Shown: positions 10,769-16,991 of the stretch, piece by piece
Position numbering within the stretch: position 1 is the stretch's first letter
Layout of the letters: each line of letters begins with the position of its first letter
Origin: Owenweeksia hongkongensis DSM 17368
GTDB taxonomy: Bacteria; Bacteroidota; Bacteroidia; Flavobacteriales; Schleiferiaceae
NCBI RefSeq assembly: GCF_000236705.1
Contig: NC_016599.1
Span: 372,001 to 436,000, forward strand
Length of the DNA: 64,000 nt
Reading direction: 5' to 3'
Notes under the pieces: generated by a model
Told to the model about the DNA's origin: nothing
The model's input: only the letters and a program-made list of their open reading frames with translations
Database searches by the model: none
Program-made: the position numbers and the translations under genes

Positions 10769-11227
10769 ATGAACCTAAGTACCAACTTGAGCTTGCTTGA
10801 AGTAACCAAAAGCCAAACAGCAGTTCGCCACAGTATAGACAATACACCAAACGCCCAGCAATTAGAAAATCTGAAGCGTGTAGCGGAAAACATTTTTCAG
10901 CCCATTCGTGAGCATTTTAATACCCCAATTTTTATAAGCTCAGGCTTTAGGTGTGAAGATCTCAATACGCGCATTGGTGGCTCACGCACGAGTAGCCATT
11001 GCAAGGGTGAAGCTCTGGATATTGACATGGATGGACGCGGTACCATTACCAACCGTCAGGTGTTTGATTACGTGCGTGCCAACCTCCAATTCGACCAACT
11101 TATTTATGAATTTGGCGATGACCAAAATCCGGGCTGGGTACACATTAGCTATAAGAAAACAGGAAATCGTAATCAGGTGTTGAAAGCCAGTAAAGTAAAT
11201 GGAAGAACCACTTATACTCAGATGTAG
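10769..11227 (+). CDS. Peptidase M15-like (D-Ala-D-Ala carboxypeptidase-type) protein
   Basis: A 152-aa protein without signal peptide whose core fits peptidase family M15_3: the segment ISSGFRCEDLNTRIGG, then SHCKGEALDID, which supplies the zinc ligands His and Asp, and finally WVHISY with the third ligand His. These enzymes cut peptide crosslinks in peptidoglycan and are frequent in prophages, but homologues occur as lone chromosomal genes in Bacteroidota, and no phage genes surround this one. The lack of a signal peptide is notable and leaves open how it would reach the wall. ATG start; convergent with the thrombospondin-repeat gene. Confidence 0.88.
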   Translation: MNLSTNLSLLEVTKSQTAVRHSIDNTPNAQQLENLKRVAENIFQPIREHFNTPIFISSGFRCEDLNTRIGGSRTSSHCKGEALDIDMDGRGTITNRQVFDYVRANLQFDQLIYEFGDDQNPGWVHISYKKTGNRNQVLKASKVNGRTTYTQM

Positions 11228-13293: not shown

Positions 13294-15315
13294 TCATTCA
13301 TTATTTTCCAGAAATCCAAGGTTAAGAAGTCGAACTTTACCTGCGCGATCGCCAAGCTTTATTCTCCATCTTTTTTCCATGAATTCTAAAAGAGACAGAC
13401 CTCTTTCAAGAATATGGATAGGTGTCCAAGAATCTTCTTTTGAAACTTCTATTTCTGAGTATGAACCAAATCTATAACTAACAGTCGTTTCAGCGTTATC
13501 TCTCTTGTCAATAAAGCATTTATCTTGAAGACTTGAATTTTTCGGTTTAGATAGGGGTAGTAGATTACCCAGGGAATTTTTAAGTTTATTTTTTTGGGCA
13601 CTAGTGTATGTACTGTAATCTGTCTGCCAACATTTTTTTCTGCTATTCTGTGGATAGATGTGTTCGACACTAATGTAGTCAGTCTTTTCTTGTGTAAATT
13701 CTACCCAGTTTATTTTTGACGTATTTGTTTTAGATCCACTTTTCAAATGTTGCTCATACTCAAAAAGAAAATAACGTATCCCAGACCAACTGTAAAAACC
13801 ATTCTTAAATTCGCTAACCAAGTTTTCAAATGAGATCTCATTTTGAAGTAGTTTTTGAATACGATGGTTAAGTATTTCCGTTACCTCTTCAACGGATTTG
13901 GTTTCATTTGAATATTCGGTAGCCAAAATTAATGCACTTGATTCTTGAGGGCCAAAAATGGCGTATCTGAAGTAGAAGCCTAATAATGACAAAACAAACT
14001 TTTCGCGCTCAATCACCCTAAGAAGGCCAAGTCTTTTTTTCGCATCAGATTCCTTTTGATAAATTAGCATTAGTAGAGGAGCATAATCAGAAAAACCTAT
14101 TCTTTCGAGTCTATCTAACCACATTCGCTCTTCCTCAAGAATATATTTATTCTCGATAGGGTTGAAAAGGTAATACCAAGATTCAACTGATCGCTGCAAA
14201 CTATTAGCATAATTATAAATATCCTTTACTGAAAGTGACTTTGCTCCATTCCCAGACGAGGATTCATTGGAAATGTGCTGATTGAAATTTGGTTTATCAA
14301 TGTTCTTTAGGGTAAACTTCTCATCAAGCAAATAGCTACTGAAATCATTTCTGTAAGCGCGATGAATTTTTCTAAAGTGTGAATTATATTCTGTAGGTAT
14401 AGCCTCGTCATTTGAAATAATTTCAGATGAAAAGCTGATTAAGAAATGATTATATAAAAATTTATCATCATCAAGTGGTTTTTGCTTGTTTTTGCCAAGA
14501 TGATGGTAAACAGATTTCCAGCAATCATTTATCTTTCTTCTTAGGTCGACTCTTTCGTATTCTTCAATATTGTACTTGGTTGTTAGGAAAATTAGCCTAT
14601 TTTTTAGTAATTCCAGAATGGAGAGGACTTTTCCTCTGTTATTCATCACTTCAAAAGCTACGTGCACATCTATATCACTTGATATTGCATAGATGTTAAA
14701 CAGAAAATGCTGAGTTATCTTAGTAAAGATCTCTTCTATTTGATCATGAGTGAGCTTAGCCAGCTGTTCTTTAAAATATTCTTTTGCATTTTCTAGATTA
14801 TGTGTGTAAATGGTTTCTTCTCTATGATATGCTCTCTCTTAATTATTGTTGAAGATTTTTGTTTTTAGAAACTCATAGCTTGGATTATCCTTATGGTAAC
14901 CAAAAATGTAGGATCCTGATATGCCATCTGGCTGGCTATCGAATATGTATCTTTTCTTAATTTCTGATAATGTCAAATATCCTAAAGTTGCATTTTGGTC
15001 GATACTTTCAAGAATGGACTGAATTAGTATTAATGAGGTAGTTAATCGCTGTTGGCCATCGACAACATAAAAAGGTTCAAAGTTTTTGGATGAAATAATC
15101 CATTCGTCATCATCCCATGTCTTATAATCGATGGGTGGCACATCTTCAAAAGTGAGAACACCAACGTAATGGTTTTGACCGTTTTCTAGTTGAACAATAT
15201 CGGCCCAAAAATCTTTTAGTTGTTTATTTGTCCAAGCATATCCCCTCTGATAGTCCGGGATTCTTAGTAATCGTTCAGTGAATAACTTAGAAAGTGACTT
15301 TAGTTGATTATCCAT
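13294..15315 (-). pseudogene. DUF262/DUF1524 (GmrSD-like) gene interrupted by one in-frame TAA
   Basis: Two collinear pieces share one reading frame. The upstream piece has the DUF262 hallmarks IPDYQRGYAW and FYVVDGQQRLTT (DGQQR at about 86-90 from the ATG at 15315). The downstream piece has VAFEVMNNRGKVLSILELLKNRL and a C-terminal DUF1524/HNH-type domain with SVEHIYPQ and SLGNLLPLS. Between them one TAA (14839-14841) breaks the frame; the 57 codons after it are open and read straight into the conserved DUF262 segment (e.g. ETIYTHNLENAKEYF). GmrSD-type proteins are type IV nucleases that cut modified phage DNA. Both catalytic motifs are intact, so this is a recent inactivation, a sequencing error, or possible readthrough. 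The gene sits alone between housekeeping genes. Confidence 0.85.
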
Positions 15316-15356: not shown

Positions 15357-16991
15357 TTACGCCTGTATCACCCCAGGGTTATAAGCCTTTTCAATAGGAG
15401 CCTGATTCGCGGCTTCAATTCCCATACTAATCCAGGTGCGGGTTTGCAGTGGATCGATAATGGCATCGGTCCAAAGTCGTGCAGCAGCGTACTCCGGCTT
15501 AGTTTGCTTTTCGTAGCTAGCCGTAATGCGGTCTAAAAGTTCCTTTTCTACCTCAGGAGTAATTTCTTCGCCTTTGGCTTTTAGGCTGGCGGTTTCTATT
15601 TGTAGCAATACTTTGGCGGCTTGCGCTCCACCCATTACTGCAAGGTTAGCAGTAGGCCAGGCCACAATAAGGCGTGGGTCATAGGCTTTTCCACACATGG
15701 CGTAGTTTCCGGCACCGTAGCTGTTTCCAATAATGATGGTAAACTTAGGTACCACCGAGTTTGCCATGGTACTCACCATCTTGGCGCCATCTTTAATGAT
15801 ACCACCATGCTCGCTGCGCGATCCTACCATAAATCCTGATACATCCTGAAGGAATACCAGTGGGATTTTCTTTTGGTTACAGTTGGCAATAAAGCGTGAA
15901 GCCTTGTCGGCACTGTCAGAGTAAATCACACCGCCAAACTGCATTTCGCCAGTTTTGGTTTTTATCATTTCGCGGTTGTTGGCCACTATACCTACAGCCC
16001 AGCCGTCAATGCGGGCGTATCCGGTAACTATGGTTTTTCCGTAACCTTCCTTGTATTCTTCAAATTCGCTATTGTCTACCAAGCGCTCTATGATTGCTTT
16101 CATATCATACTGCTTGGTGCGGTCTACCGGTAGCAGTCCGTAAATTTCTTTTTCGTCTTTGGCGGGTTTGGCAGGCTCAGTACGGCTAAATCCTGCTTTG
16201 TTAGATTCACCAATCTTATCCATTATAGTTTGGATGGTTCTCAAAGCATCAGGGTCATCCTCGCTTTTATAATCCGTCACACCCGAAATTTCACAATGGG
16301 TAGTAGCTCCACCCAAAGTTTCATTGTCAATATTTTCGCCAATAGCGGCTTTTACCAGGTACGAACCAGCAAGGAAAATGCTTCCTGTTTTATTTACGAT
16401 AAGTGCTTCATCACTCATAATAGGGAGGTAGGCACCACCGGCCACGCAGCTTCCCATAATGGCCGAAATCTGGGTAATACCCATAGAGCTCATAATGGCA
16501 TTATTGCGGAAAATACGTCCGAAATGTTCCTTATCCGGGAAGATTTCATCCTGCATTGGCAAATACACACCAGCGCTATCTACCAGATAAATAATAGGAA
16601 TTTTGTTTTCCATCGCGATCTCCTGAGCACGTAGGTTTTTCTTACCTGTAATGGGGAACCAGGCTCCCGCTTTTACTGTGGCATCATTGGCTACCACCAG
16701 GCAAATGCGTCCTTTTACATAACCCATCACTACCACTACGCCACCACCGGGGCAGCCGCCATGCTCGGCATACATATCATATCCGGCAAAAGCACCAATC
16801 TCAATCTGTGGACGGTTTTTATCCAGCAAATAAGCCACGCGCTCACGCGCGGTCATTTTACCTTTTGCCTTGTGCTTCTCGATTCGCTTTTCGCCACCAC
16901 CAAGGTGAATTTTCTCAAGTTTTTGCTTTATATCTGAAACCATTAGTTTCAGTTTGTCTTCGTTCTTGTTGAATTCCAGGTCTTGTGCCAT
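15357..16991 (-). CDS. Acyl-CoA carboxylase carboxyltransferase (beta) subunit
   Basis: A 544-aa biotin-dependent carboxyltransferase of the propionyl-/methylcrotonyl-CoA type. The N-terminal half carries the acyl-CoA-binding crotonase-like fold with RIFRNNAIMSSMGITQISAIMGSCVAGGAYLP, whose parts match the oxyanion region, and the C-terminal half carries FLQDVSGFMVG and GNSYGAGNYAMCG. The catalysed step moves carboxyl from carboxybiotin to an acyl-CoA. The A-M-C-G-K-A-Y-D-P-R segment is closer to methylcrotonyl-type enzymes, but I would not fix the substrate from motifs alone. No biotin carboxylase subunit gene is adjacent. ATG start. Confidence 0.9.
   Translation of the reverse strand: MAQDLEFNKNEDKLKLMVSDIKQKLEKIHLGGGEKRIEKHKAKGKMTARERVAYLLDKNRPQIEIGAFAGYDMYAEHGGCPGGGVVVVMGYVKGRICLVVANDATVKAGAWFPITGKKNLRAQEIAMENKIPIIYLVDSAGVYLPMQDEIFPDKEHFGRIFRNNAIMSSMGITQISAIMGSCVAGGAYLPIMSDEALIVNKTGSIFLAGSYLVKAAIGENIDNETLGGATTHCEISGVTDYKSEDDPDALRTIQTIMDKIGESNKAGFSRTEPAKPAKDEKEIYGLLPVDRTKQYDMKAIIERLVDNSEFEEYKEGYGKTIVTGYARIDGWAVGIVANNREMIKTKTGEMQFGGVIYSDSADKASRFIANCNQKKIPLVFLQDVSGFMVGSRSEHGGIIKDGAKMVSTMANSVVPKFTIIIGNSYGAGNYAMCGKAYDPRLIVAWPTANLAVMGGAQAAKVLLQIETASLKAKGEEITPEVEKELLDRITASYEKQTKPEYAAARLWTDAIIDPLQTRTWISMGIEAANQAPIEKAYNPGVIQA

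Follow-up and report, generated by a model that had tools for sequence, protein, structure and literature searches.

GmrSD-family proteins are type IV restriction enzymes in which single-chain forms predominate (PMC4619093, PMC4437046), and HEC-06 and HEC-05 (BrxU) have been characterized as GmrSD-like and as acting on their own (PMC11411939). In an intact enzyme of this kind, as in BrxU and related enzymes, a nucleotide-binding DUF262 domain would sense modified invading DNA and license a DUF1524 HNH nuclease. Here we analyzed a gene with this architecture from Owenweeksia hongkongensis, located in a window of 64,000 nucleotides (the whole stretch of DNA analyzed; contig NC_016599.1, positions 372,001 to 436,000; coordinates below are those of the window). 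The gene is divided by one in-frame stop codon and is very probably a recent pseudogene, derived from a type IV restriction gene like those of HEC-06 and BrxU that had been acquired horizontally.

A single-chain GmrSD-family gene with one internal TAA

The features of the locus are as follows.

13294 to 15315, minus strand: interrupted single-chain GmrSD-family gene, 674 codons (672 sense codons, the internal TAA and the terminal stop)
14842 to 15315, minus strand: N-terminal fragment of 158 codons, which covers the first half of DUF262 (Pfam GmrSD_N, 2.8e-20, profile positions 2-89)
15046 to 15060, minus strand: DGQQR motif, residues 86-90, the DUF262 nucleotide-binding/hydrolysis motif, invariant in an alignment of 42 sequences
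14839 to 14841, minus strand (reading 14841-14839): TAA at codon 159, the sole internal stop in the frame
13294 to 14838, minus strand: C-terminal fragment, 514 codons plus stop, comprising the remainder of DUF262, a helical linker and DUF1524 (Pfam GmrSD_C, 4.9e-15; GmrSD_N profile positions 139-198; secondary structure of the model)
14667 to 14669, minus strand: GTG, the first in-frame start-like codon past the stop, 57 codons after the TAA (start position 14667; low edge of the span approximate)
14629 to 14643, minus strand: NNRGK motif, residues 225-229, the second conserved DUF262 block, invariant in the alignment
13648 to 13665, minus strand: EHIYPQ motif, residues 551-556, the HNH/His-Me nuclease motif of DUF1524 (E551, H552, I553 and P555 invariant)
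15357 to 15358, no strand: homology breakpoint against the closest congener, coinciding with the stop codon that ends the carboxyltransferase gene

The frame opens with ATG at 15315, closes with its terminal stop at 13294 and encodes both DUF262 and DUF1524, as had been proposed from the letters alone together with the single in-frame TAA. That proposal left the strand unstated; it is the minus strand. The two domains do not share an uninterrupted frame, as the TAA falls at codon 159 and cuts the Pfam GmrSD_N match between profile positions 89 and 139. A frameshift was considered and rejected, the frame being identical on both sides of the TAA. The sequence-only reading had reported 57 open codons after the stop; this holds and extends further, since all 514 remaining sense codons are open (P ≈ 1.5e-18 from base composition alone) and 57 is the distance to the first possible restart, the GTG at 14667 (later start-like codons in frame are GTG 14649 and ATG 14646). 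Across the single contig of the genome (4,000,057 bp) the GmrSD-type gene was matched once, with the same single internal TAA, and no second full-length copy was found. A search of the gene against NCBIfam gave no match.

Assignment to the GmrSD family, also suggested beforehand, was borne out by sequence and fold. The QR (Q23/R24), DGQQR (86-90) and FxxxN (F221-N225) motifs of DUF262 are all present and invariant across the 42 sequences, and the DUF1524 HNH domain carries both EHIYPQ and LGNL. The earlier statement that all motifs are intact therefore holds for DGQQR, NNRGK and EHIYPQ but not for the C-terminal NxxF motif, where the near-invariant last Asn is Asp at residue 598. This substitution is not damage specific to the O. 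hongkongensis copy, because an intact relative (L010) likewise has Asp at that position. When the read-through protein was modeled with AlphaFold2 (pLDDT 84.8, pTM 0.81), the result matched the fold shared by DndI, SspE and BrxU, with Z scores of 19.4 (PDB 9jfl), ∼15 (SspE) and 10.8 (BrxU), well above those of unrelated structures. Codon 159 lies within DUF262 in the modeled loop between helices 145-154 and 169-185, ahead of strand 204-211, so that this strand is missing from the 158-residue piece, together with NNRGK, the linker and the nuclease. According to the model, a C-terminal piece initiated at the first restart would begin in the middle of DUF262, past the same strand; bypass of the lesion through an internal start was rejected, as no start-like codon occurs until 57 codons beyond the TAA. 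Neither piece corresponds to natural GmrS or GmrD, and the interrupted gene is a broken homolog of the GmrSD family, not a working member.

The same genome is reported to contain a second, intact gene of 351 codons that matches DUF262 but not DUF1524 (G000:C1:2752035-2752439; L164:937-1992) and adjoins a frame without family assignment.

The stop is found in no homolog examined

Homologs were searched for in a 395-genome sample of the class, in GTDB contigs and in viral contigs. A contig search with the C-terminal part alone as query returned no relative, whereas the alignment as query did. Intact homologs were found, the nearest ∼54% identical, and the aligned part of all 115 homologous loci is free of in-frame stops. 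The alignment crosses codon 159 in 112 of these loci, each with a residue or a short gap at that point; the column marks the start of a variable loop and is serine in 44 of the 50 closest relatives and another residue in 6. Because homologs align there with a residue or a gap and never with a stop, the TAA is, as far as the alignment reaches, private to the O. hongkongensis copy. In the relatives inspected, homologous genes often adjoin housekeeping genes (e.g., IMPDH/GMP synthase, FGAR amidotransferase), and the O. hongkongensis copy does likewise.

Two homologs, both from other bacteria, are broken in other ways, one by a frameshift near residue 82 (L079) and the other by absence of the first 110 residues (L080). 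These lesions are unrelated to the TAA, and loss therefore recurs in the GmrSD family. In Chitinophaga qingshengii the homolog (L070:115-2313) has as its neighbor a further DUF262 protein, with a match to the PADLOC model NsnA (2.1e-62), and the two may form a defence pair.

No further decay is visible in the frame. Among the columns that 90% or more of the relatives conserve, the O. hongkongensis copy deviates in 3 of the 49 that precede the stop and in 5 of the 103 that follow it, so by this count damage at conserved sites is not enriched downstream of the TAA. Intact relatives depart at 0 to 16 conserved columns in all, which places the 8 observed here in the upper part of the range but within it. 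Of the single substitutions that the frame could undergo, 5.9% create a nonsense codon. With indels assumed to occur at 10% to 3% of the substitution rate, another lesion should have appeared (95%) by the time neutral divergence reached ∼1.2 to 1.9%, respectively; none was seen. As there is neither a second lesion nor an enrichment of damage after the stop, the loss of the gene, if real, looks recent. A very recent loss and a functional gene expressed by read-through nevertheless look alike in sequence, except for the stop.

A variable site beside the carboxyltransferase gene

The GmrSD-type gene had no match in three congeners (two of them fragmented assemblies). The closest congener (G026) shares 93% nucleotide identity with O. 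hongkongensis in a 3,159-bp stretch right of the gene, up to the breakpoint; past this point, G026 has the first part of a gene for a nucleotidyltransferase substrate-binding protein (L052:1-222). Homology to another congener (G028) stops at the identical base, beyond which lie a short frame without assignment and a gene of the YjgF family (L051:11859-14838). The GC content of the GmrSD-type gene is 33.8%, against 39.3% for the window. Its absence from congeners, the end of homology at the breakpoint and the low GC content are compatible with an accessory gene in a variable site, probably acquired horizontally. A search for direct and inverted repeats around the gene revealed no target-site duplication and no element ends. 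Just past the carboxyltransferase gene, each congener with coverage of the site carries something different, O. hongkongensis having the GmrSD gene; this may be a small exchange site. Elsewhere in the window, a small peptidase M15_3 gene (10769-11227, plus strand; Pfam 6.1e-20) is of a kind also found in phages.

Probable inactivation and its alternatives

Recent inactivation of a horizontally acquired gene accounts best for the locus. An accessory, HEC-06-like single-chain GmrSD gene would have inserted beside the acyl-CoA carboxylase carboxyltransferase gene, and one nonsense substitution would then have arisen at codon 159. Translation should terminate inside DUF262, and the 158-residue product would keep DGQQR without the remaining DUF262 fold and the whole nuclease, from which we infer that the defence function of a formerly active enzyme was lost. 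Of the three readings offered from the sequence alone (very recent loss, base-call error or programmed read-through of a toxic nuclease), the first is the best supported, by the private stop, the lack of any other lesion and the lack of excess damage after the stop. For the genome of O. hongkongensis, 33 pseudogenes are reported (PMC3570807).

It is unlikely that the TAA is a base-call or assembly error and that the gene is intact in the organism. Typical 454 errors are not single substitutions outside long homopolymers, which counts against a miscalled base here. The genome is finished, was sequenced to 300× with Illumina and 8.6× with 454, and was polished with the Illumina data to a stated error of <1 in 100,000 (PMC3570807), which disfavors the second of those readings. 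However, an error ceiling of 1 per 100,000 bases still allows up to ∼40 errors in 4 Mb, and if 5.9% of random substitutions give nonsense codons, the genome could still hold about two false stops.

Programmed or tolerated read-through of the TAA, yielding a little full-length nuclease and so keeping a costly defence enzyme low, is very improbable. The frame after the stop is open without visible decay, and a residue inserted at the TAA should be tolerated in the loop between helices 145-154 and 169-185. Against this, not one of the 115 homologs carries a stop at the corresponding position. Functional recoding, where known, is usually conserved between relatives, which counts against read-through. 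TAA is also the commonest terminator in the window, closing 20 of 39 long frames, and general suppression of TAA would be costly because so many frames end in it. The 37 tRNA genes found include none with anticodon tta, cta or tca (for TAA, TAG and TGA), a survey that addresses suppressor tRNAs, low near-cognate decoding leaving no trace in sequence; one gene may be missing from the 37, as 38 tRNAs are counted in the O. hongkongensis paper (PMC3570807). A literature search on read-through of bacterial pseudogenes found nothing directly applicable. The proposal of programmed read-through thus finds no support in homologs, tRNA genes or terminator usage. The accompanying description of the product as a toxic nuclease is conjecture, the solved relatives being regulated restriction enzymes. 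There is a similarly slim chance that the gene is a stop-gated defence enzyme private to the lineage, in which low and possibly regulated read-through would give trace amounts of full-length GmrSD nuclease.

Least probable of all is a division by the stop into two working subunits like the two-gene GmrS/GmrD systems: the two are separate proteins in some bacteria (PMC4619093), but the split here falls inside DUF262, ahead of its last predicted strand (204-211) and of NNRGK, not between the domains, and the first restart-like codon (14667) lies 57 codons downstream, beyond that strand.

If the loss of function is real, the locus would offer a snapshot of a defence gene shortly after its inactivation, in a position that other genes occupy in related strains. 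This matches the gain-and-loss turnover expected of bacterial defence genes and is ordinary, not specially novel; the case would gain importance only with a demonstration that full-length protein forms despite the TAA.

Comparison with known systems

By sequence profile and fold, the nearest solved relatives of the read-through protein are DndI (PDB 9jfl; Z of 19.4 over residues 1-653) and SspE (PDB 6jiv and 7drr). Both are part of phosphorothioation systems; DndC, sought as a phosphorothioation partner, was not found in the O. hongkongensis genome, and a link to phosphorothioation is unlikely for this reason. Among PADLOC models, those of the candidate system HEC-06 were the best for the read-through frame (E = 1.4e-39) and span both DUF262 and DUF1524. 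The O. hongkongensis copy differs from HEC-06 in being interrupted by a stop and in having housekeeping genes as neighbors, no further defence gene being recognized close by. BrxU (PDB 7p9k and 7p9m), a type IV restriction enzyme of the GmrSD family, shares the two-domain architecture and the DGQQR and (D/E)HIYP motifs, and matches the whole model in structure (Z of 10.8; Foldseek E = 1e-4), but it is only ∼14% identical to the read-through protein, is intact and lies within a BREX locus (PMC8565348). Compared with Eco94GmrSD and the GmrS-GmrD enzymes, the O. hongkongensis gene is interrupted, yet it shares their membership of the type IV family that cuts modified phage DNA (PMC4619093, PMC4437046).
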